From assembly GCA_030748215.1 (NCBI GenBank), contig JASMMK010000045.1, positions 1 to 64,000 of the forward strand: DNA of 64,000 nucleotides, in the 5' to 3' direction. The DNA comes from Candidatus Scalindua sp. GTDB taxonomy: Bacteria > Planctomycetota > Brocadiia > Brocadiales > Scalinduaceae. Under the pieces are notes generated by a model. The model saw only the letters and a program-made list of their open reading frames with translations, was not told where the DNA came from and searched no databases. This document shows positions 32,495 to 47,103 of the stretch, piece by piece (the first letter of the stretch is position 1; each line of letters starts with the position of its first letter). The position numbers and the translations under genes are program-made.

Positions 32495-33265
32495 ATGCGA
32501 CATCTTTTGTCAGCCACAATTCTGGTAATACTAACATGCGGATGTTCATTCGCACAAAAAAAAGAGGAAGTCTTATATCAGACATCAACTATAAACGCTC
32601 TGTTGGATGAGATCTATGAGGGGGATATGACATTTGGAGAATTAAGGAGACATGGCGATTTTGGTTTGGGAACATTTAACAACCTTGATGGTGAGATGGT
32701 TGGATTAGATGGTGTGTTTTATCAAATTAAAGCGGACGGAATCGCTTATCCTGTTGACGATTTAATGAAAACTCCGTTTGCCGTGGTTACTTTCTTCGAA
32801 TCAGACAAAACAGAGGAGATAGACAAGTCAGTTGACTACGATCAACTAAAACTATTTCTGGACGGCATGTTGCCGACAGAAAATATCTTTTATGCATTTA
32901 AAATTGAAGGGACATTTGAGTATATCAAGGCAAGGAGTGTCCCCAGGCAGAACAGACCGTATCCACCGCTTGTTGAAATAGTAAAGGACCAACCAATATT
33001 TGAGTTTCATGATGTAAAGGGTACATTAGTGGGGTCCTGGTTTCCGGACTATATGAAAGGAATAAATGTTCCCGGTTATCATTTTCACTTTATTACTGAA
33101 GATAAAAAGGCTGGAGGGCATCTGCTTGAGTGCCAGACGGAAAATGTAAGGATCGGGATTGATTATACTTCTAATTCGTACCTGTCATTGCCGGAGGATG
33201 AGGGCTTTTATAATGCAGAGCTGTCTAAAAAAAACCAGGCTACGTTAGAAAAGGTGGAGAAATAA
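32495..33265 (+). CDS. Exported acetolactate decarboxylase
   Basis: The 256-residue protein has the full ALDC signature: INALLDEIYEGDMTFGELRR, HGDFGLGTFNNLDGEMVGLD, the conserved Glu/Arg region and the zinc-binding GYHFHFITEDKKAGGHLLEC (His-x-His ... His). The enzyme converts 2-acetolactate to acetoin. The N-terminus LLSATILVILTCGCSFA carries a lipobox, so it should be a lipoprotein of the envelope. Bacillus-type ALDCs are mostly cytoplasmic, although exported ones exist. No acetolactate synthase is nearby. Confidence 0.87.
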   Translation: MRHLLSATILVILTCGCSFAQKKEEVLYQTSTINALLDEIYEGDMTFGELRRHGDFGLGTFNNLDGEMVGLDGVFYQIKADGIAYPVDDLMKTPFAVVTFFESDKTEEIDKSVDYDQLKLFLDGMLPTENIFYAFKIEGTFEYIKARSVPRQNRPYPPLVEIVKDQPIFEFHDVKGTLVGSWFPDYMKGINVPGYHFHFITEDKKAGGHLLECQTENVRIGIDYTSNSYLSLPEDEGFYNAELSKKNQATLEKVEK

Positions 33266-33266
33266 A

Positions 33267-33332
33267 ATAAGGAGAATACCAGTAAGAATTGCTTTACAAT
33301 TCTTGCCTGTGCAGTTCTCCTTATCATATTTT
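33267..33332. terminator. Terminator between the decarboxylase and ferredoxin genes
   Basis: An outer stem ATAAGGAGAA / TTCTCCTTAT with an inner AAGAATTG / CAATTCTT hairpin is followed by a T-rich stretch. It separates converging transcripts. Confidence 0.65.
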
Positions 33333-33379
33333 ATACTTGTCATAGCACCTTCCCGCCTGGGACGGTGTTATGCAAGAAA

Positions 33380-33568
33380 TTAATCTTCAATAGCTATGCA
33401 TTCAACGGGACACTCTTCTGCTGCCTGTTTACAGTCTTCCTCTGCGCCACCAGGAACGGAATCACCCTTTACGACAGCGACATCATCTTCCATGTCAAAA
33501 ACATCCGGACATGTTATTACACAGAGTTCACAACCGGTACACTCATCAGCATCTATTGTAGCCTTCAT
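33380..33568 (-). CDS. Single-cluster [4Fe-4S] ferredoxin
   Basis: A 62-residue electron carrier. The cluster ligands are in DECTGCELCVITCPDVF (C-x2-C-x2-C-x3-C) and the later ECPVEC. Acidic residues predominate, as usual in ferredoxins that donate low-potential electrons. The second cluster of clostridial ferredoxins is absent; the middle segment VVKGDSVPGG replaces it, as in Desulfovibrio and Thermotoga monocluster types. The gene is monocistronic with its own promoter upstream. Confidence 0.92.
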   Translation of the reverse strand: MKATIDADECTGCELCVITCPDVFDMEDDVAVVKGDSVPGGAEEDCKQAAEECPVECIAIED

Positions 33569-33665
33569 TAACTTCCTCCTTTTATAAAAAAATAATTATG
33601 TTAGTTCTTCGCTACTAACAAAACCCTACTCGACTCTTGCAAATAATAAGATAATAATTTAGATT

Positions 33666-33695
33666 TTAATATAAATAATCCTCATTAATTGTCAA
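33666..33695 (-). promoter_or_regulatory. Promoter of the ferredoxin gene
   Basis: On the minus strand TTGACA (33695-33690) and TATTAA (33671-33666) are spaced by 18 bases, about 100 bases upstream of the ferredoxin start. Confidence 0.5.
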
Positions 33696-33897
33696 GCTTT
33701 TTTATACAGTAAAATTTTTAAAAATCATGAAGCACTTTTCTGTAATTAAATATTAGATAAGTAGTTATTATTCCATTACATAAGGAAATGTTTGAAAGCG
33801 TTTAAACAGTTTCTTCTTGACAATAATTTCCATGTCATTATATTCAAGGAACGAGTCAATTTTAGATTGATTACTGTACTTTGAAAATTCAAAAGTT

Positions 33898-34106
33898 TGT
33901 TTACGGGTGTTCGCAAACAGCAGTTTACTGCTGCTAGCGACATAATAGGGAAGTCCCTTAAAGGGCACGGACCCGCCGCTGTAATCGGCTACTGAAACTG
34001 CGTATCATTTTTTTTCGTGATAACAGGCCACTTCTCCCGGCTTTGACCGGGGTGGGAAGGCGCAGTCTTCAGGATGACCCGATAGTCAGAAGACCTACCT
34101 GTAAAT
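33898..34106 (+). promoter_or_regulatory. Cobalamin riboswitch 1 (first of a tandem pair)
   Basis: The conserved core GGGAAG..GGGCACGGACCCGCCGCTGTAATC is followed by the CCACT stem, GGGAAGGCGCAG, and the B12 box AGTCAGAAGACCTACCTG. The ends TTTACGGGT and ACCTGTAAA close as P1. An intrinsic terminator follows at 34182-34217, so control is probably transcriptional: bound B12 favours termination. A poorly spaced TTG-initiated 27-codon leader frame (34145-34228) runs through the terminator. Confidence 0.95.
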
Positions 34107-34181
34107 ACTTCACAATAACTCTTCGAAGGTAAAGAAGGTGGAGGTTGAATACGTATTTATTACATAATACACATAAACATG

Positions 34182-34217
34182 AAACCCGGATCTTCAATGA
34201 GAAGATCCGGGTTTTTT
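34182..34217 (+). terminator. Terminator of riboswitch 1
   Basis: AAACCCGGATCTTC pairs with GAAGATCCGGGTTT around a 5-base loop, followed by T residues. It sits 75 bases after the B12 box and before the second riboswitch. Confidence 0.9.
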
Positions 34218-34329
34218 TATTGGAGTAATAAATCAGCCTGCGAAAAACACTAAAAGATATTTTCGTGGTATTTCGTGTTTTTTGTGGGCAATGGAGGTAA
34301 TCGTTTGAGTTAACATTTTAGTAATTTTT

Positions 34330-34500
34330 TTCTGTGTGTGAGATATCAGGGAATCCCCGCCGGGTTTAAACTCGGTTAACGGGAGCTGCCCCGCAACTGT
34401 AATCGGTGACGAAATCTGCAAAATGCCACTGTCCGCTTTCGGCGGATGGGAAGGTGCAGAAGCAAGGATGATCCGAAAGCCAGGAGACCTGTCTTGCGCA
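34330..34500 (+). promoter_or_regulatory. Cobalamin riboswitch 2 (second of a tandem pair)
   Basis: The core reads CAGGGAATCCCCGCC, GGAGCTGCCCCGCAACTGTA, GCCACTGTCC and GGGAAGGTGCAG, with the B12 box AAGCCAGGAGACCTG. P1 may form between GTGTGAGA (near 34337) and TCTTGCGC. No T-run terminator follows. Instead, a TTTTTCC / GGGGAAAA hairpin lies against the AAGGAGG ribosome site of the porin gene at 34542, suggesting control at translation. The 5' limit is approximate. Confidence 0.93.
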
Positions 34501-34541
34501 TTTTTTCTAACATTTTTTTCCGAGGGGAAAAGGAGGTTCGC

Positions 34542-36074
34542 ATGAAGTATTTTTATTATCTACCGCATCTATTCATTATTTTACTTTCTTGTAATCCGGT
34601 GTTTGCAGCAGTTTCTGATGAGGAATTTGAGGCATTAAGCAGGCAGGTCAAAAGCATGAAGAACACCATAAACAGGTTGGAAAAGTATCTTGATAAGGTC
34701 GAAAGTGTTGAGCCGGAGGTGGCAAGGTCTTCTGCAGGGACAAAACAAAAGCACAGTCAGTATGACTCTATTGATGACCAAAAGGGCCTTGCTAAGTCTG
34801 AAGAGGGACTTGCAAACAAGATTAGTACGTTAGAAGATATGGTTTACGATCTTAAAGACAGGGCCTCACTCATGGATATAACTGATGAAATAAGACGTAT
34901 TCAGGAATATGTCTGCCGAAAAGGGCATGTCTTTACGGCACAGGGCGAGGACAAAAAATGCCCAAGTTGCGGTTTGAAGCAGAAGAAAAGATCGCGGTTC
35001 AAACTATTTAAATTTGCCAGGCGAGAGAGTATATCAGACAGGATCTCAGCTGCGGTTGAAGATGAAATGGAGAGCCGTGTAATCGTTGGGGCCAGCGGTA
35101 CAGGTATTTTTCAGCAATTAATAAATAGTGACAGGCAGGGAAAGAGTGTTGCTAATAGCGGAAAGAAGAGTTTTGCAGAAGGTTCCACGGACCTGCTGTT
35201 TATAGCGAGGCCGCTTCTCTACACTACTTTTTTCCTGGACCTCGAATCGATAGGAGGTAATGGGCCTGATGAGATTGTTGGAAGTATTTCAGGTCTTAAT
35301 GATGATTCCGGTTCGCTGCAGGACACTGATGGAGTTGACAGGGTTTCTGTCAGAGAAGCATGGTTGCAGACGTTTCTTTTGCTGGAAAGATTAAGGATTG
35401 TAGGTGGTAAGGTAGACTTGACAAACTACTTCGATTCCAACACGGTTGCTAACGATGAAACCACCCAGTTTATAACAAGCGCCTTTGTGAATAATCCTGC
35501 AATGGAGCAACCTGGAAACGGTCCCGGCTTATTGGCATTTTTTGATACAAGAAGAGCATTCACGATTGGGTTTGGTTTGCAAAGTATTGATAATTCAGGT
35601 ACCAATGTCACTGATGGTATATATGCTATAGCTGAAATAGGATATAGATCTCACTTCTTCTTTAACCAGGAGGGTAACTATCGCCTGTGGGGAAAGACTA
35701 AAGGTGGTACGGAGGATAACAACGGTTTTGGCGTCAGCATAGATCAGAACCTTTCCACCAGGCTGACCGCATTTGGACGTTATGGAGCCAATGAGTCTGA
35801 AGAGGATGACGCGAGTATTGCAAGCGCATGGAGTGCGGGTCTCCGGTTCCGGTCTCCATTCTTTTCAAGGGTCAATGATGAAGTCGCTATGGCATTTGGT
35901 ATGTTAGACATAGTAGATGGAGATAAAGAGAGCGCGTTAGAGGTTTATTATAAATTTCAGGTTAATAATCGCTTTGCCGTTACACCAAACGTTCAAGCAG
36001 TGTTTGATCCTGCCGGGATGGGCTCAAATGCTACAGCTGGCGTTATTGGTATTAGAACACAGGTAGAATTTTGA
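34542..36074 (+). CDS. B12-regulated outer-membrane porin-like protein
   Basis: A signal peptide (YLPHLFIILLSCNPVFA) precedes a coiled coil (residues about 22-60 and 82-108). A zinc-ribbon-like pair follows, YVCRKGHVFTAQ and KKCPSCGLKQ, and then a long beta-rich domain (about 180-510) with alternating strands and a terminal Phe (RTQVEF), the usual close of an outer-membrane barrel. This layout fits planctomycete porins with a periplasmic coiled coil. Its leader has two cobalamin riboswitches, so it probably admits corrinoids or cobalt, in the place where a TonB-dependent BtuB would be expected. The ATG at 34542 has AAGGAGG; an ATG inside the riboswitch is rejected. Confidence 0.75.
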   Translation: MKYFYYLPHLFIILLSCNPVFAAVSDEEFEALSRQVKSMKNTINRLEKYLDKVESVEPEVARSSAGTKQKHSQYDSIDDQKGLAKSEEGLANKISTLEDMVYDLKDRASLMDITDEIRRIQEYVCRKGHVFTAQGEDKKCPSCGLKQKKRSRFKLFKFARRESISDRISAAVEDEMESRVIVGASGTGIFQQLINSDRQGKSVANSGKKSFAEGSTDLLFIARPLLYTTFFLDLESIGGNGPDEIVGSISGLNDDSGSLQDTDGVDRVSVREAWLQTFLLLERLRIVGGKVDLTNYFDSNTVANDETTQFITSAFVNNPAMEQPGNGPGLLAFFDTRRAFTIGFGLQSIDNSGTNVTDGIYAIAEIGYRSHFFFNQEGNYRLWGKTKGGTEDNNGFGVSIDQNLSTRLTAFGRYGANESEEDDASIASAWSAGLRFRSPFFSRVNDEVAMAFGMLDIVDGDKESALEVYYKFQVNNRFAVTPNVQAVFDPAGMGSNATAGVIGIRTQVEF

Positions 36075-36214
36075 ATATCGCTATACGGTATTTAAGAATT
36101 GGAAATTCATATGACAGGAAAAAGTTCATCAAATTCATGGAAGGAGGTGGATTGATCAAAATGAAAAGTTTTTATTTTATAATTTCGAAAAATCTTGAAA
36201 GGAGGAGAAAGAGT

Positions 36215-37417
36215 ATGTTGAAAAATTTGAAGATGTTTAATACAGGTATCTTTGTATGTTGCATGGTTACTGCATCCTGGGTCTTTGCATTGGCTGGCCA
36301 GGCCGGAGATAAACAGGTAAGTTTTGATCCTAATTCAGTCGCATTCGTTACCAATCGCGATTCCAGTGATGTTACCGTTATAGATCTGAATACGGATGTG
36401 ATACTGGACCGCATTGCATGTGGTGACTGGTCAAATCCACACATGGCCGTTGCGACTCTGGATGGAAAAAACTTATTGGTAACAGGTACAAACTCTAATT
36501 TTGTAGCGATCATTGATCTAAAGACCAGGGAGCTTACCAAGGTCAGGTTGGGACTTATGCCGGAGCATTTCGATATTACTCCTGACAGTAAATATGCATA
36601 TATTGGAAATATGGCTGCAGGATGTGTTTCTGTCGTGGATATAGAAGCTAAAAAAGAGATAAGAAGGCTCAACGGTTTCTTTGAACCACACGGCATTGTT
36701 TGCCTGCCGGGCAGCTCTAAGGTTTACATCTCTAACATGGGAGCACATGAAGTAGGAGTTATAGATGTTGAAACACAGTTGGTTGCATCAACGATGGAAG
36801 TAGGAAGTGCATATGTAATGGCCCAGGTAGACATGAATAGTAAATTAGCTGAAGTTGTAGGTATCGCAAATCCTACATTGACAATTGACGGCCGTTACGC
36901 TTATGCCGCTGACGGTGATTCAGATCAGGTTGCTGTTATTGATACAATAGATGACAGTGTGGTAGCAACGATCCCTGTAGGAGATGATCCATGGCGAGCT
37001 TATGCGTCACCTGACGGTACAAAGATGCTTGTGCCAAATAATGGTGATGAGACTATTTCCGTGATCGATACAACTATTAATAAGGTTGTAGCTACCTTCC
37101 CCGGTGGTGCGGATATGACTGGAGTCAATTTTGTAAACGGAGGTAAAAAGGCTTATGTCATAAGCAGAGGAGATAATGGAGTATATATATATGACATGGA
37201 AGAGATGAGAGAAATAAAGAAGATTAAGCTTGGTCTAAATGTGAGTCCTGAAACCGCATCGACTACACTAGACGGAAAGAAAGTGTATCTTGCAGCATCT
37301 GCAAGGAATTCAGTCTTTGTCTTTGATGCGGATACTGACGACTACAAGGAGATAACTAACGTCGGTCTTTCACCATGGGCAGTAACAATTATTGGTGCAG
37401 CAAATTATTGTCATTAA
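36215..37417 (+). CDS. Exported YVTN-type beta-propeller protein
   Basis: A signal peptide (TGIFVCCMVTASWVFALAG) is followed by seven or so repeats of about 42 residues of the YVTN/NHL-like type: VAFVTNRDSSDVTVIDL, KNLLVTGTNSNFVAIIDL, YAYIGNMAAGCVSVVDI, KVYISNMGAHEVGVIDV and YAYAADGDSDQVAVIDT. Such propellers bind proteins or metals in the periplasm. The start at 36215 has AGGAGG nine bases before; the longer frame from 36071 would begin inside the end of the porin gene. The 141-base spacing suggests it may share the B12-controlled transcript. A terminator follows at 37458-37508. Confidence 0.85.
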   Translation: MLKNLKMFNTGIFVCCMVTASWVFALAGQAGDKQVSFDPNSVAFVTNRDSSDVTVIDLNTDVILDRIACGDWSNPHMAVATLDGKNLLVTGTNSNFVAIIDLKTRELTKVRLGLMPEHFDITPDSKYAYIGNMAAGCVSVVDIEAKKEIRRLNGFFEPHGIVCLPGSSKVYISNMGAHEVGVIDVETQLVASTMEVGSAYVMAQVDMNSKLAEVVGIANPTLTIDGRYAYAADGDSDQVAVIDTIDDSVVATIPVGDDPWRAYASPDGTKMLVPNNGDETISVIDTTINKVVATFPGGADMTGVNFVNGGKKAYVISRGDNGVYIYDMEEMREIKKIKLGLNVSPETASTTLDGKKVYLAASARNSVFVFDADTDDYKEITNVGLSPWAVTIIGAANYCH

Positions 37418-37457
37418 TTTAGTCTTAGCTACATAGTAGTTTGTTTCATGGTTTTTA

Positions 37458-37508
37458 AAAGGAGCAAGGGGGAATTGTCTTTTACATATAGCCCTTGCTC
37501 CTTTTTTT
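37458..37508 (+). terminator. Intrinsic terminator after the beta-propeller gene
   Basis: AAAGGAGCAAGGG pairs with CCCTTGCTCCTTT around a 21-base loop, followed by seven T residues. Confidence 0.85.
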
Positions 37509-37563
37509 GTGCAAAAAGTATTTTGAAAATAGTACTATATTCTTAAATTTTTCATATTAGCGT

Positions 37564-37593
37564 AGGGTGGTTTAAGCGATAGCGAATCCACCC
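37564..37593. repeat. Short palindrome AGGGTGG..CCACCCT
   Basis: A GGTGG / CCACC inverted repeat with GCGAATCCACC on one arm. The same GCGAATCCACC word is found in the palindrome at 63730-63778, so it belongs to a dispersed family. Confidence 0.5.
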
Positions 37594-37624
37594 TTAACCT
37601 GAGAGCCTGCCCGTGCCGGTACGG

Positions 37625-37667
37625 ACGGGGAGTCGAAGTGTTATCAACGTTGAAAATTCCTATGCAT
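37625..37667. repeat. Dispersed repeat copy 1 (GAGTCGAAGTGTT type)
   Basis: GGGAGTCGAAGTGTTATCAA followed by GTTGAAAATTCCTATG. Copies with the same order of blocks are at 47372-47412 and 52377-52424. It overlaps an apparent upstream extension of the protease frame, which is why the protease start is placed downstream. Confidence 0.65.
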
Positions 37668-37684
37668 ATATCTTGAAAGAGACA

Positions 37685-39250
37685 ATGAAATATATAATAA
37701 GAGCGTTTTTGTTATTGCTGTTTTCCTGTCTCAATGTCCTTGCACTGAGTCCGGTATATTCACACCAGGCTGGGAATGCCATTCCACGGCCAACCGTGAT
37801 AAATCATCTCAAAGAGACGGAAGAATACAGGACCACTCTTTCCTATTATCCAGTTGGAGACACCGGAGTCTTCGATTTCACCGTTCGGGTTGAAAAAATC
37901 AGTTCAGGATATTATTACAATCAGAAACTTGAGTTTAAGGTTGTTGATCCCCAAGGCATAGAAAGAATTTCTTATAGACCGTTCCTTGATAATGAATCCA
38001 ACTATAGAATGAGACAGGTTCTGGAAGATGAGGGACAGTATCTGTTCATCGTACAGTTTAATTGGGAAGGAAGAGAGCAGGAAATATCATTTCCGCTCAA
38101 AATAGAAAAATATAATATTGAAAACATGTGTCCCTGGTGTCTCATGTTAGTAACAAATATAAAAACCGCATATTTTTTAACCATGAATGATGGTGACAAA
38201 AAAACTTGTTGTATTCATTGCGCCTTAAGTTATAGAAACAAGTTTAGTGATAAATTTCTTTCAATGAAATCTGTGGATTATTATAGCGAAGAGATCATTG
38301 ACAGCCAGAACGCCTGGTATATTAATGATCCTGATATCACTCTTGAGGATTCAATGCCACCCTATGTAGTCGCTTTCAGTTCCATAGAATCTGCAAGAGA
38401 TTTCCAGAAAGCGTATGATGGGGAGATTGTTGACATTAACAGATTGGAATACGAGGTGTTGAGGAAAAAGGATCCTGAATTCTCATCTGAAGAGGATGAA
38501 GATGTGCTTCTTTTAGAAAATCTTATTCTCAAGATAAAAAATAACTACTATAAAGATACTAATGTTAAAAAGCTAATCAAGTCATCCATTAAGAGCATAA
38601 CAACTTCTCTGGATCAACATAGTTCGCTCAAAGAGATTAAGCCTTCTTCTTCCGGTTTCATAAGAGGCTTCGAAAGGGCAGAAACTATATCTGGCACAAG
38701 GATTATTAATGATAATATCGGATACATTAAAATTGAGCATTTTGGGAGAAGAACAAAGGAAGGCTTTACAAAGGCATTGGCAGATTTAAAAGATAAAGAC
38801 CTCTGTGGATTAATCCTCGATCTGCGGGATAATCCGGGAGGAAGCCTGGAAGAGACTATTCCAATAATGGAGTTATTTATTTCTGAAGGCAAACTTCTAC
38901 TAACGGTAGAAAGTAAAGGGCAGACAAAATATTTTTCCAGAAATGATGAAGTATTTACTAGCCCTCTGGTGATATTAATAAATAGTAATACTGCAAGCTG
39001 TGCTGAAATATTTGCAACAACTTTACGTTACTATCAAAAAGCTATACTTGTGGGTACAAATAGTTATGGGAAGGGAACGATACAAAAAATTTTTCCGTTA
39101 GACTACAAACATTCCTTAGTTCTTACCATCGGTGAATTCTACCTTGCTGATGGTACCTCACTACAGGGTGCAGGTGTAAAACCAGATTATGTTGTTGAAG
39201 GTAATGATGAGCAGGTTAAGTTTGCTATAGAGCTTATTAACAAATGGTAA
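37685..39250 (+). CDS. Exported NosL-like domain fused to S41 protease
   Basis: A signal peptide (AFLLLLFSCLNVLALSPVYS) is followed by three parts. Residues about 30-135 are beta-rich (YYPVGDTGVFDFTVRVEKIS...), YtkA/FixH-like. Residues about 140-260 have CPWCLMLV, KKTCCIHCALSYRNKF and MPPYVVAFSSIESARDF, a NosL-like metal-binding pattern. Residues about 290-520 are an S41 C-terminal processing peptidase with LCGLILDLRDNPGG, the catalytic Ser in NTASCAEIF and Lys in YGKGTIQ. The PDZ domain usual in this family is missing, and the metal-binding region takes its place. The ATG at 37685 is chosen over an upstream frame that lies within a repeat. Confidence 0.8.
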   Translation: MKYIIRAFLLLLFSCLNVLALSPVYSHQAGNAIPRPTVINHLKETEEYRTTLSYYPVGDTGVFDFTVRVEKISSGYYYNQKLEFKVVDPQGIERISYRPFLDNESNYRMRQVLEDEGQYLFIVQFNWEGREQEISFPLKIEKYNIENMCPWCLMLVTNIKTAYFLTMNDGDKKTCCIHCALSYRNKFSDKFLSMKSVDYYSEEIIDSQNAWYINDPDITLEDSMPPYVVAFSSIESARDFQKAYDGEIVDINRLEYEVLRKKDPEFSSEEDEDVLLLENLILKIKNNYYKDTNVKKLIKSSIKSITTSLDQHSSLKEIKPSSSGFIRGFERAETISGTRIINDNIGYIKIEHFGRRTKEGFTKALADLKDKDLCGLILDLRDNPGGSLEETIPIMELFISEGKLLLTVESKGQTKYFSRNDEVFTSPLVILINSNTASCAEIFATTLRYYQKAILVGTNSYGKGTIQKIFPLDYKHSLVLTIGEFYLADGTSLQGAGVKPDYVVEGNDEQVKFAIELINKW

Positions 39251-39311
39251 GTAGTTGAGAAAAGTAAGAAAGAAACTATTTCTTTAGAATCATAATCTGG
39301 ATAATCCAGTA

Positions 39312-40157
39312 CTATTGCACTGCACCAGCTTCCGCGAGCAAACTACCGATCTTTCTATAGTCATTTATATCTGCAATTCTAAGAGCTGTAAGACCACTCT
39401 TATTTCTTACGCTCACATCTGCTCCCGCATCTAACAAGGCTTCCACTATATTTGAGTGTCCATTACGTACTGCAATTATCAGGGCTGTGTTACGGTTCTT
39501 GCTTATGATGTTCACATCAACCCCTGTATCTATCAAAATTTTCGTGATCTTTATATTGTCACTGGAAGCTGCATGCATCAGTGCGGTGTTGCCATTATTA
39601 TCTTTTGCATTTACATCGGCACCCTCAATGAGTGTGAGCTTTACGGCGGTGTAGTCCCCACACATTGCCGCAAACATCAGGGCTGTCCTGCCTAACTTAT
39701 CTATAGCCCCGGCTGCCTCAAGTGAGGTTATGATCTTCTTTCGGTTATTCGTTACTGCGACCTCAAGGGCTGTAATCCCATCCGTGTTTTTCACATTCAC
39801 ATTGGCCCCTGCCGCTATCAAGGCGTTTACAATGTTTGCACGCCCATGCCATGCGGCAATTATCAGGGCGGTATTTCCGTCCCTATTCTCAACATTCACA
39901 TCAGCCTTTACGGCTAGTAAGATTTCTAAGATCTTAATTTTATTACTGGAAACAGCATACATCAGGGCAGTGTTGCCATTATTGTCTTTTCCATTTATAT
40001 CCATGTTCCTGTGTTCTGTCAGTAAACTCCTTACGGCATCGATGTCACCATTAATTGTCGCATACTTCAAGCGTTCTACTTCTCCACAGATTACGGATTC
40101 AGCTACAAGTAGGATTGTGACTACTATTAATGGGTATTGTACAAATCTGAATTTCAT
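39312..40157 (-). CDS. Exported ankyrin-repeat protein
   Basis: A signal peptide (VQYPLIVVTILLVAESVICG) precedes about seven ankyrin repeats of 33 residues, with repeated NGNTALMYAVSSNKIKIL, GNTALIIAAWHGRANIV, GITALEVAVTNNRKKII and GADVNAKDNNGNTALMHAAS. Ankyrin repeats bind proteins; here they would act in the periplasm or at the cell surface. The start at 40157 is chosen because the upstream 20 codons do not form a signal. It points towards the protease gene and is not part of the B12 transcript. Confidence 0.87.
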   Translation of the reverse strand: MKFRFVQYPLIVVTILLVAESVICGEVERLKYATINGDIDAVRSLLTEHRNMDINGKDNNGNTALMYAVSSNKIKILEILLAVKADVNVENRDGNTALIIAAWHGRANIVNALIAAGANVNVKNTDGITALEVAVTNNRKKIITSLEAAGAIDKLGRTALMFAAMCGDYTAVKLTLIEGADVNAKDNNGNTALMHAASSDNIKITKILIDTGVDVNIISKNRNTALIIAVRNGHSNIVEALLDAGADVSVRNKSGLTALRIADINDYRKIGSLLAEAGAVQ

Positions 40158-40562
40158 TATATTATTACCAGGCAGATTAATAAGCAGTATTAGCAATCCA
40201 GCATGAGCTGAATCCACGTCATTCTTGATTTTTCAGAAACTGTTATAAAAATATGGAATTCTATGTAAATTGAAAATACAGGAATAAAAAAATGATGAAG
40301 TCGTGATCTCTTCTTCTCAGTAGTTACTATTATATAGCCTTCAGGCTGCTATGATAATATAAAGTAAAAAGCAAAATCAAGAGGAAAAACCCTCAGCAAA
40401 TTGAAGAATATATTCACTTCCCCGGACAAAAGGCGCCGATGGCTTTGATTCCCTCCTTGCGAAGGCAATGTTATTGGGCCGAATATGATTAAGTTGACAG
40501 GGTTAAGTATTATAAGTAGAACTACCTATTCTTAATTTTGATCTTAAACAATTAAAGAGTAC

Positions 40563-40744
40563 GGTTACAGGTAATTCCATCCTGAATGTAATGGATGGGA
40601 TTTAAAAGGGAATCCCTGGTAGAACAGGGAACGGACCCGCCGCTGTAGTCGATGACGAAAATTGCAATGCCACTGTTCGCCACTGGCGTATGGGAAGGCG
40701 CAATGAGTAGAACGATTCGATAGTCAGAAGACCTGCCTGTAACT
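40563..40744 (+). promoter_or_regulatory. Cobalamin riboswitch 3, upstream of cbiM
   Basis: GTTACAGGTAAT (40564) pairs with CCTGTAAC (40736) as P1. The core has GGGAATCCC..GGAACGGACCCGCCGCTGTAGTC, the GCCACTGTTC stem and the B12 box AGTCAGAAGACCTGCCTG. It closely resembles riboswitch 1 in the core and also in the 3' flank (CTTCGATGGTAAAGAAGGTG). A terminator follows at 40832-40868. The upstream interval 40218-40562 shows only a TTGACA at 40494 as a possible promoter element. Confidence 0.95.
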
Positions 40745-40831
40745 GCTTCACATAAACTTCGATGGTAAAGAAGGTGAAGGTTTATATGGTAATTGATCAT
40801 CAAGTTAACTTGTATGCAGACTTACTGATAG

Positions 40832-40868
40832 CCCGTACCTTTTTTCCGCAAAAGGTACGGGTTTTTTT
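40832..40868 (+). terminator. Attenuator terminator of riboswitch 3
   Basis: CCCGTACCTTTT pairs with AAAAGGTACGGG around TTTCCGC, with seven T residues after it. Confidence 0.9.
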
Positions 40869-40887
40869 GTTTGTTTTTGATTCCAGA

Positions 40888-41661
40888 TTGATTGAAATAA
40901 AAAAAATATTATTAGGCTTATCTATCGTCATTGCACTTCTGCTGTTGCCACATAACGCGTATGCAATGCATATTACTGAAGGTATATTGCCTCCAAAATG
41001 GGTTGTTTTCTGGTTCATTCTGATTATACCATTTGTTGTCATTGGTACACTCAGTCTGAAGAGAAAGAAGAGAGAGGTACCGGGCTTCCTTCCGTTAGTT
41101 GGATTGGTCGGGGCCGCCGTGTTTGTTTTTTCCTGTTTTCCAATTCCTGTAGTAGGTTTGAATGGAATGGCAACTGCACACCCGGCGGGAACAGGAATGA
41201 GTGCGATGCTGTTGGGACCATTTGTGAGCGTTGTTATTGCAGGAATTGCGCTTTTTATACAGGCACTTTTTCTTGCTCATGGAGGGATTACTACCCTGGG
41301 TGTTAATATCTTTTCTATGGGTGTACTCGGCTCCTTTTCAGGGTACTTTGCATTCAGGCTGGCGCAGAGGATGGGCCTTAAGCTGTTCTGGTGTGGTTTC
41401 CTGGCCGGAGTAATTTCCGATTTGTGTACTTATATGGGTACCTCGATAGGATTAGGACTTCTGGTATTTGAAGGGGACGAGTCGTTCTCCGTTGCCATGA
41501 TGCACAGTGCAAAGGCAATGTTAGAGATATTCGTAGTGTTTATGGCTACTTCTCAAGGGTCACTATGTATTGCGGAAGGCATTGTCGTTGGATTTGCTCT
41601 GTCCTACGTATATAAAGTCAGTCCGAGTATTTTATACAACCTGAGGGTTATAAAAGAATAA
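40888..41661 (+). CDS. cbiM: ECF cobalt transporter substrate-binding subunit CbiM
   Basis: CbiM is the membrane S-component that selects cobalt for the ECF transporter. The mature start MHITEGILPPKW follows a signal-like segment ending HNAYA; cleavage there would expose Met-His, the N-terminal metal-binding residues of the family. Six to seven membrane segments follow, with GMATAHPAGTGMSAMLLGP, LFLAHGGITTLGVN and FLAGVISDLCTYMGTS, all typical. The TTG at 40888 begins the signal. The frame is also open from an ATG at 40786 with a GAAGG site, through the terminator stem, which could be an alternative start or leader peptide. The gene is controlled by riboswitch 3. Confidence 0.93.
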   Translation: MIEIKKILLGLSIVIALLLLPHNAYAMHITEGILPPKWVVFWFILIIPFVVIGTLSLKRKKREVPGFLPLVGLVGAAVFVFSCFPIPVVGLNGMATAHPAGTGMSAMLLGPFVSVVIAGIALFIQALFLAHGGITTLGVNIFSMGVLGSFSGYFAFRLAQRMGLKLFWCGFLAGVISDLCTYMGTSIGLGLLVFEGDESFSVAMMHSAKAMLEIFVVFMATSQGSLCIAEGIVVGFALSYVYKVSPSILYNLRVIKE

Positions 41662-41699
41662 TAATCCCTCAATTATTAAATCCTTAAATTGGTTTTATT

Positions 41700-42044
41700 A
41701 TGTCTAAGTATTTCACTATTTTTGCATTCATATTATGTCTTACTCAATCGCATGTTCTGTACGCGGAAGGGCCATACATGCCTGATCCAATTGAAGGTAT
41801 TGAGGTGGAGGAAACAGTAGCGGTTGAAGAAGAGGGGAAATGGACAGGAATTGATGTAAGTATTGTAGGGAAATATGCCGAAAAATATGGCCATCCACCA
41901 AGAGATCCTTATATCAACACAGATCAGGGAGACCTCCTGCTGTTTGTTTTTACCTTTTTTGGTCTGGTCGGGGGTATTGTCATTGGTTACAACTTCAGAA
42001 AACTATTTGTTGAAGGAAAAGATAAGAAAAATTCACAAGAATAA
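41700..42044 (+). CDS. CbiN-like small membrane protein of the cobalt transporter
   Basis: A 114-residue protein with an N-terminal signal/anchor (YFTIFAFILCLTQSHVLYA), an acidic periplasmic loop and a C-terminal membrane helix (LLLFVFTFFGLVGGIVIGY) ending in a basic tail. CbiN proteins have this same two-helix layout and lie between cbiM and cbiQ, as here. Sequence likeness to enterobacterial CbiN is limited to the second helix region, so the name rests mainly on topology and position. It probably assists cobalt loading of CbiM. Confidence 0.7.
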   Translation: MSKYFTIFAFILCLTQSHVLYAEGPYMPDPIEGIEVEETVAVEEEGKWTGIDVSIVGKYAEKYGHPPRDPYINTDQGDLLLFVFTFFGLVGGIVIGYNFRKLFVEGKDKKNSQE

Positions 42045-45518: not shown

Positions 45519-46352
45519 CTATGTACTTCTTAACAGAAATCGTTTAACAAATAGACAAATAAGAAGAATTAATGCATTGGTAACAGAAATGGATGGCCCG
45601 GTTGGGAAATCAAACCAATATGAAACTACTATACCGATAATAGATGAAAGCCATATAGATAAGACAGACACAAGAAAAATCCACTTCAAACGTTGAAAGA
45701 GACACAAACCAGTCATTGCAGGAATAACAAGAGATGAGAAGATAAAGAGCATGCCTGCAGAACGAATACCTACTGAAATAGCTATACCCAATGTAAAATA
45801 GATGAGGAAATCATAGAAACGTGCAGGAATCTTTAAAGTCTGTGCAGTAGTAAGATCAAAAGAGACAAAGATGAACTCTTTGCGGAATATCATGTGAACG
45901 ATAAAAATTAATCCTGAGATAATAGATATTAACAAAAGATCAAAATCACTTACAAACAGAATATTTCCTGAAAAGAGGTCCAGATTTTCTACTTCAGCGA
46001 GCGGGTCTTTTGCAATAATAAGGATAGCAAGGGCAGAAGCGAAGATATAGGAAAACCCAATAAGACTCTCTCTTGTGATGGAACCGCCGGAAACAGGAAG
46101 CCAGAAAAACAGCACTCCCAGTATTGAAAAAAGAAATGCCAATGCTTCAAAATTAAGGCCTATTTTATGTCCAATCATATGCCCTATTACTACACCAACT
46201 GCAGCCATCTGTGAAAGAGCAGCGCCTACGAATACAATCCTTTTCAAGATCAGAAAGACCCCGAGGTATGCGCATATACCACCCAAAATAACACTTGCGG
46301 CTAATCCTACCTGGATAAATCGTTCACTAAAAATTTCAATCAGCAAATCCAT
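45519..46352 (-). CDS. znuB: Zinc/manganese-type ABC transporter permease
   Basis: A member of the ABC-3 permease family (277 residues, about eight hydrophobic segments). Recognisable are RFIQVGLAASVILGGICAYLG at the start, AALSQMAAVGVVIGHMIG, the EAA-like coupling helix LTTAQTLKIPARFYDF and SAGMLFIFSSLVIPAMTG. It forms the membrane channel for a Zn or Mn uptake system with the ATPase encoded just upstream, which it overlaps by 17 bases. The binding protein is encoded 3 kb away (49290-50219). A decayed copy of its 5' end is at 48967-49125. Confidence 0.92.
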   Translation of the reverse strand: MDLLIEIFSERFIQVGLAASVILGGICAYLGVFLILKRIVFVGAALSQMAAVGVVIGHMIGHKIGLNFEALAFLFSILGVLFFWLPVSGGSITRESLIGFSYIFASALAILIIAKDPLAEVENLDLFSGNILFVSDFDLLLISIISGLIFIVHMIFRKEFIFVSFDLTTAQTLKIPARFYDFLIYFTLGIAISVGIRSAGMLFIFSSLVIPAMTGLCLFQRLKWIFLVSVLSIWLSSIIGIVVSYWFDFPTGPSISVTNALILLICLFVKRFLLRST

Positions 46353-47103
46353 TAGAGATAACTATCTTTTTTCCTGATACCTCACCCACCTTCACATGAC
46401 TGTCAAAGACTTCTGAAAGATATTTGTCTTTTATAGCCTCTTGAATTGGATGAATATAAAACTTACCCTTTGTAATAAAAGCAAGCTTTTTTACATAGTT
46501 GATAATGTTGTGTAAAAGATGACTGACGATTACTACTGTTACATTTTGCTCAGAATGAATCTTTCTTATTAATTCCATGATCTGAGTTTCACCCTTAATA
46601 TCCATATCGTTAGTAGGCTCATCCAGTATTAAAATATTAGCCTCACTTGCAAGTGCACGAGCGATAAGGACACGCTGTTTCTGCCCACCGGAAAGGCTAC
46701 GGTATGTTTGATGAGCAATGGAATTGATTCCTGCAATCTCTAAAGCATGGTTAACATACTTCCAATCCACTTTACTAAGTCTTCTTCCCAGCTTTGTATT
46801 TCTGTATCTTCCCATAGAAACAATCTCTCTAGCAGTAAGAGGAAAAACCTCATCCACAAACTGACGTTGAATGACATAACCAAATTTATTTTGATCTGTC
46901 TCAGATGTAATAGTGCCCGATACTGGTTTTATAAGACCGAGAATACCTCTCAGCAGTGTTGTTTTACCGGACCCGTTTGGGCCTATAATTCCGAGAAAGT
47001 CATTAGAATGAATATCAAAATTCAGGTTTTCCAGGATACACTTTTTCCCATAACCGAGAGTTACGCCTTTAAAATTTATCAAGGACTGGTTTGCAGTTTT
47101 CAA
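46336..47103 (-). CDS. znuC: Zinc/manganese-type ABC transporter ATPase
   Basis: The 255-residue ATPase has Walker A GPNGSGKTTLLRGIL, Q-loop YVIQRQFVDEVFPLTA, signature LSGGQKQRVLIARAL, Walker B NILILDEPTNDMD and the H-loop VVIVSHLLHN. The Pro-Leu-Thr-Ala-Arg-Glu words in the middle are typical of ABC-3 metal importers. Upstream, where znuA would be expected, only the last codons of a znuA copy remain (47415-47466). A 3' fragment of a second znuC is at about 49084-49125. Confidence 0.93.
   Translation of the reverse strand: MKTANQSLINFKGVTLGYGKKCILENLNFDIHSNDFLGIIGPNGSGKTTLLRGILGLIKPVSGTITSETDQNKFGYVIQRQFVDEVFPLTAREIVSMGRYRNTKLGRRLSKVDWKYVNHALEIAGINSIAHQTYRSLSGGQKQRVLIARALASEANILILDEPTNDMDIKGETQIMELIRKIHSEQNVTVVIVSHLLHNIINYVKKLAFITKGKFYIHPIQEAIKDKYLSEVFDSHVKVGEVSGKKIVISNGFAD

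Follow-up and report, generated by a model that had tools for sequence, protein, structure and literature searches.

The window, i.e. the whole 64,000-nucleotide stretch of Candidatus Scalindua sp. DNA analysed here, contains on its + strand a gene for an OprB-like porin (34542-36074; PF04966, E 1.4e-20), which has a CxxGH...CxxC site before the barrel. The next gene on this strand (36071-37417; PF21783, PF02239; start codon uncertain) codes for a beta-propeller protein of the YVTN/YNCE type. In an Infernal search, RF00174 was the sole Rfam family that reached its gathering threshold in the window, with three matches against a gathering score of 31.5: RS1 (33888-34116, 69.3 bits), RS2 (34324-34510, 81.0 bits) and RS3 (40552-40754, 100.1 bits), all on the + strand. 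When the search for RF00174 was extended to all 2.44 Mb of the assembly, the same three aptamers were listed and no further ones. RS1 and RS2, which lie upstream of the porin gene, both span the full model (positions 1-189) above the gathering score. This confirms the first-pass annotation of this DNA, which had placed two cobalamin riboswitches in series before the porin gene and proposed Infernal with RF00174 as a check; its coordinates sit within the Infernal boundaries. RS3 lies outside the tandem and is used here for comparison. It stands alone, is of the same kind as RS1 and is followed by its own terminator (40830-40863, + strand), upstream of cbiM, cbiQ and an ABC ATPase gene.

For the comparisons below, an aptamer that is paired and followed by a terminator is labelled type A, a single one with a terminator type C, and one without a terminator type B. 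RS1 is of type A, with the core motif CCGCCGCTGT and the B12 box GTCAGAAGACC at 34085. RS2 is of type B, with the core motif CCGCAACTGT and the B12 box GCCAGGAGACC at 34479. RS3, although single, was assigned to type A. The core identities are 71% between RS1 and RS2, 70% between RS1 and RS3 and 72% between RS2 and RS3. Because these values are so low, none of the three is a recent copy of another, as had been proposed for RS1 and RS2. A scan of 33000-42000 found no tandem repeats. The proposed likeness of RS1 to RS3 stood in one respect and fell in another: the two agree in type, having in common CCGCCGCTGT, GTCAGAAGACC, the L13 letters GGTAA and a terminator, but not in overall identity, which at 70% is no higher than for the other combinations.

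RS1 is followed by a P13 hairpin (34108-34143, fold -7.2 kcal/mol), which carries L13 AAGGTAA at 34126-34132 and which is found in the type A relatives as well. Further downstream lies an intrinsic terminator (34181-34218) with a stem of 15 pairs at 34181-34215, a T-run at 34212-34218 and a folding energy of -24.2 kcal/mol, where the first-pass annotation had expected one. In a simple terminator scan of 1551 bases two hits were found and 0.9 were expected by chance; the two hits are one hairpin read on both strands. The 3' strand of P13, GAAGGT at 34134-34139, could act as an antiterminator by pairing with ATCTTC at 34190-34195, as it does in the minimum-energy fold. When the RS1 transcript was folded up to the terminator arm, the minimum contained this GAAGGT/ATCTTC duplex and had a total energy of -10.0 kcal/mol, against -7.2 kcal/mol for P13 alone. 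When the 3' arm of the terminator was added, P13 together with the terminator was preferred. Across the 77 elements with a terminator, the antiterminator duplex was no better than with shuffled arms (mean -9.5 against -9.0, with more than one standard deviation in 21/77), so the antiterminator step in RS1 can only be inferred. It is retained here solely because the RS1 fold and one published case concur. Pairing of the B12 box with the terminator arm was discarded as a candidate, the best pairing target in the window being the 3' strand of P13.

RS2 has a platform of another kind. Its P13 hairpin (34509-34538; fold -9.5 kcal/mol, z -1.7) encloses the Shine-Dalgarno sequence AAGGAGG (34530-34536), which ends five bases ahead of the porin ATG at 34542. 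The hairpin against the ribosome site that had been predicted from the sequence is thus present. In the window fold the scored Shine-Dalgarno letters were paired with a probability of 0.77, and the terminator finder detected no terminator after RS2. Among the B-type elements the scored letters were paired with a probability of at least 0.5 in 47/50. The fold z-scores of these hairpins are modest (mean -0.98; under -2 in 4/50). An arm-swap analysis of the P13 stem in the 46 distinct hairpins among these 50 gave p 0.07 overall and p 0.90 for the lower stem, and f3 was the one family that gained clearly. We therefore rejected the arm-swap as a proof of covariation; the tandem claim does not depend on it.

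According to the accessible parts of the literature, AdoCbl switches usually act via a pseudoknot in which a C-rich loop takes part (PMC2258182) and which is named L5-L13 (PMC9600662, PMC10653944). In RS1, L5 GGACCC (33969-33974) is the predicted kissing partner of L13; in RS2, the same role is predicted for L5 TGCCCC (34387-34392) towards L13 GAGGGG at 34522-34527. CTCGG in the P5 extension had been considered as the L5 of RS2 and was abandoned when L5 was identified with the C-rich loop. Loops were tabulated for 127 elements with patterns that were written after inspection of the sequences and that missed the loop of 6 elements. L5 GGACCC or AGACCC was paired with a GGT-bearing L13 in 50 elements. 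With L5 GGTACC, L13 bore GTA in 20/22 elements and GGT in 0, and among the B elements L5 CCCC went with L13 GGGG in 46/48 and with GGG in the other two. One L5 GGTCCC faced an L13 with GGT, a partial mismatch, and in G018:C138 L5 GGGCCC faced GGC in L13, as judged by eye. Since the letters hardly vary within a type, this match amounts to few independent changes. Nevertheless, it is the best evidence that both P13 hairpins may form ligand-linked platforms.

Do the two aptamers act on one transcript? Three promoter-like sites were found on the + strand of 33250-34800, every one of them upstream of RS1. The best is TTGACA-16-TATATT at 33817-33844, with 11/12 consensus matches. These sites are consensus matches, which are no evidence of function, and on both strands of this region there were 7 of them with 3.4 expected. 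The first-pass annotation had named a separate gene or promoter between the aptamers as the finding that would speak against a shared transcript. Between RS1 and RS2 the consensus scan gave no promoter-like site on the + strand, nor is there a + strand ORF of more than 27 aa in a listing that went down to 20 aa. A relic gene between the two, which we had also considered, is unsupported by the ORF listing and by the spacer scans. In the relatives introduced below, the 150 bases that precede the first element contain a promoter-like site in 34/47 listed pairs (with at least 10/12 matches in 29/47), and such sites occur in 6/36 of the spacers that are long enough for scanning. From position, spacer lengths and promoter scans, RS1 and RS2 would thus reside on one shared transcript.

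The opposite reading is that RS1 is a separate unit, a small RNA or a relic that ends at its terminator, and that RS2 alone controls the porin from a promoter of its own. The strength of the RS1 terminator (-24.2 kcal/mol) and the 108 bases that separate it from RS2 in the window are what one would expect in this case. The spacer without a + strand promoter-like site is not, and neither are the fewer than 30 bases that 7/47 listed pairs leave between the terminator and the second aptamer, nor the retention of the pair in at least 44/62 genomes. We consider this reading very improbable.

We quite confidently predict that the RS1-RS2 leader is a bi-mechanism tandem cobalamin riboswitch, transcriptional and then translational, with both parts being OFF switches. 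It comprises two complete riboswitches of the same class before one gene, with no gene between them, and its first platform is an intrinsic terminator and its second a hairpin over the ribosome site; in these features it agrees with the published definition of such a tandem (PMC9481103). That corrinoids are bound and that both elements switch OFF would follow from the riboswitch family to which they belong. A single transcript would begin upstream of RS1. Once RS1 is occupied by a B12-type corrinoid, L5 (ACC) would pair with L13 (GGU) and hold P13, the 3' strand of P13 would be unavailable to the 5' arm of the terminator, and transcription would end at about 34218. In the ligand-free state, the P13 3' strand GAAGGT would pair with ATCTTC instead. 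Transcripts that escape would carry RS2, in which ligand would cause pairing of L5 (CCCC) with L13 (GGGG), and P13 would then close and mask the site at which ribosomes bind the porin mRNA. Porin output would be lowered twice, early and permanently by RS1, and on existing mRNA by RS2. The series reading of the first-pass annotation, with the transcriptional platform first and the translational one second, is supported by the window sequence and by the relatives. Other tandem classes fit less well. In a pseudo-cooperative tandem the two platforms are of one kind and share their level of action, but no terminator was found after RS2; in a cooperative tandem of the glycine type the aptamers have one common platform, but RS1 has its own terminator ahead of RS2.

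The direction of the first switch could in principle be inverted. RS1 would then be an ON switch in which ligand blocks the terminator, and RS1 and RS2 would oppose each other. An activating corrinoid riboswitch is indeed known, that of A. halodurans cobT (PMC10653944, in its accessible part). However, the P13 and the terminator of cobT have a strand in common and are mutually exclusive, whereas those of RS1 are separate and the full platform folds with both. We therefore give an ON function of RS1 next to no credence and retain the OFF-OFF assignment.

What would a bi-mechanism tandem gain? The first-pass annotation had expected a steeper or more complete shut-off than with one aptamer. In a simple model of two independent 1:1 switches with equal affinity, the range from 90% to 10% narrows from 81-fold to 40-fold (n_H 1.19), and a leak of 10% at each switch becomes 1%. 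Hence the model predicts only a slight gain in steepness, and the expectation holds mainly for completeness: the larger predicted gain lies in the depth of the shut-off together with the control of existing mRNA. Control of mRNA already made has also been argued for SAM-II/SAM-V (PMC9481103, in its accessible part).

The arrangement is widespread in the order Brocadiales (anammox bacteria), of which 62 genomes were sampled and within which the window belongs to the Scalindua side. Among 153 matches listed, there are at least 47 same-strand aptamer pairs in at least 44/62 genomes, with the partners 77-325 bases apart; these account for 94 of the 153 matches. Genomes with a listed pair number 12/17 in the family of the window, 1/2, 8/9 and 23/33 in three others and 0/1 in a fifth. 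The pair count is a lower bound: a further pair (L100, G054:C144), an A-A pair whose partners are 622 bases apart (L097, G017:C31) and a second element of 22.5 bits in G010:C126 lie outside the 47. The low score of the latter is due to an insertion. Conversely, in two of the 47 pairs one partner falls short of the gathering score (G011:C138, 26.2 bits; G015:C12, 27.9 bits). A scan of the phylum, with 119 genomes of which 5 are Brocadiales and with stricter filters that lose weak matches, gave two same-strand pairs less than 800 bases apart in the 114 genomes outside the order (G132:C200; G118:C352, with a second partner of 34 bits).

The order of the platforms is largely constant. By the raw counts of the terminator finder, a terminator follows the first element in 47/47 listed pairs, that of G050 being of a different kind. 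After the second element a terminator was flagged in 7/47; 4 of them lie below -15 kcal/mol and count as strong, the other 3, at -9.1 to -13.2 kcal/mol, as weak. The strong ones belong to G035, G041, G046 and G048, where the second element is itself of type A (A-A pairs, 4/47 listed). The order of transcription first and translation second can thus be read in 43/47 listed pairs, and in 40 of these 43, whose second elements lack a strong terminator, the chosen start codon lies 21-36 bases past the end of the model.

Two variations on the pair were seen in passing. The second aptamer of G010:C126 (L044, 2770-3074) and that of G015:C12 (4389-4595) have a long insert in the variable arm, and the insert stretches look alike; both aptamers score under the threshold of the family model (22.5 and 27.9 bits, respectively). 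In two Brocadia-type genomes, G035:C55 (L114, 329-3014) and G048:C1 (3855537-3858221), two type A switches in a row are followed by a type B switch about 1.8 kb further on; in L114 the intervening DNA includes part of a porin.

The two members of the pair belong to distinct lineages. By platform, 127 of the 153 listed matches could be sorted, 77 with a terminator and 50 without. After removal of 6 A and 5 B elements (core length or start motif missing), 116 of the 127 entered a FastTree analysis of the cores, in which all 45 B stood apart from all 71 A/C with a support of 0.974. The nearest relative in another family was a B for 45/45 B and an A or C for 70/71 A/C. The motif CCGCAACTGT was present in 45/45 B cores. 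At two coupled core positions, A occurs with G in 45/45 B, and G with A in 69/71 A/C (A with A in 2/71). Taken together, the lineage split and the core letters suggest that type A/C and type B switches appear to have separated before the Brocadiales families did. The single type A switches before cbiM bear a CCGCCGCTGT-type motif in 26/26 cases; the core therefore tracks the type of platform and not the tandem alone.

These differences bear on another interpretation, namely that the tandem is a two-input gate. Aptamers of the two types would favour different corrinoids, distinguished by the upper ligand or the lower base, and either one would shut the gene; the lineages would have been distinct since before the anammox families split, with the coupled purine change tuning corrinoid selectivity. 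The core differences fixed at the coupled positions (69/71 A/C against 45/45 B) and the separateness of the two lineages across families are compatible with such a gate. If it were true, every outer-membrane uptake gene would read one B12 species at one level of expression and a second species at another. On the other hand, RS1 and RS2 are both full members of RF00174, and the type A core of the single cbiM switches indicates that the core follows the platform. We regard the two-input gate as unlikely, and unlikely also its premise that the purine change tunes selectivity. The bi-mechanism tandem set out above remains the preferred reading.

Tandems with mixed platforms have precedents. In the accessible part of PMC9481103, SAM-II/SAM-V and some SAM-II doublets are described as bi-mechanism. 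As in SAM-II/SAM-V, the leader studied here has the terminator aptamer first and the ribosome-site aptamer second, before one gene and for the same class of ligand; it differs from the SAM tandems in that it is made of two lineages of the cobalamin class. In view of the SAM-II doublets, a design within one class is not new in itself. For cobalamin, the same source lists 26 AdoCbl doublets, which share with the Brocadiales leader the two cobalamin aptamers but are classed as pseudo-cooperative, whereas here a terminator is followed by a ribosome-site hairpin. In the literature that could be searched, cobalamin doublets are listed only in that class. Among the matches listed in our literature search, which covered texts other than subscription journals and supplements, no report of the present arrangement in Brocadiales was apparent. 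In the TPP and AdoCbl classes, tandems are described as making up less than 1% of leaders (PMC2258182, in its accessible part), yet at least 44/62 genomes of one order keep a pair. They offer a natural series for asking why transcriptional and translational switches for one ligand stay together and, with the output order fixed in 43/47 listed pairs, whether aptamer core and platform evolve jointly.

The single platforms also have counterparts, as far as the accessible text of the sources goes. In P. megaterium metE, L5-L13 holds P13, and the P13 3' strand and the 5' arm of the terminator pair as in the antiterminator proposed for RS1 (PMC10653944); there the logic was shown by mutation, whereas for RS1 folding alone points to it, and weakly. 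RS2 resembles E. coli btuB, in which the gene for an outer-membrane protein has a kissing loop and a hairpin that covers its ribosome site (PMC10653944, PMC2258182). The difference is in the target: the window has the OprB-like porin, and in many relatives the gene in this position codes for a TonB-dependent receptor.

Of 76 first genes after the aptamers, 55 were scanned (44/45 after second elements and 11/31 after single ones, cbiM-like genes being left out). TonB Plug was found in 36 and OprB in 17 (E up to 1e-5). Since the tandem fronts two unrelated outer-membrane proteins, the OprB-like porin is a candidate channel through which anammox bacteria presumably take up cobalt or corrinoids. 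The residues of its CxxGH...CxxC site (C125, G128, H129, C140, C143) are invariant in 13/13 aligned porins, a set chosen by hand. The site resembles a metal ribbon, here in an outer-membrane protein.

A relative of the porin with 41% identity is encoded outside Brocadiales, on the Ca. Manganitrophus plasmid CP114562.1 (L111, 2712-4251). Its gene is closely preceded by a TTTCCGAGGGG hairpin and by an RF00174 aptamer that scores 92.2 bits, which hints at a joint transfer of switch and porin gene. Two further observations concern the surroundings of the tandem in the window. The interval that separates the porin operon from the cobalt importer contains an ORF (37613-39250) that fuses a NosL-like stretch with an S41 peptidase domain. 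On the - strand, the cobalt importer genes are adjoined by a second ABC importer of metal type, with an ABC-3 permease and an ATPase (45519-47103).
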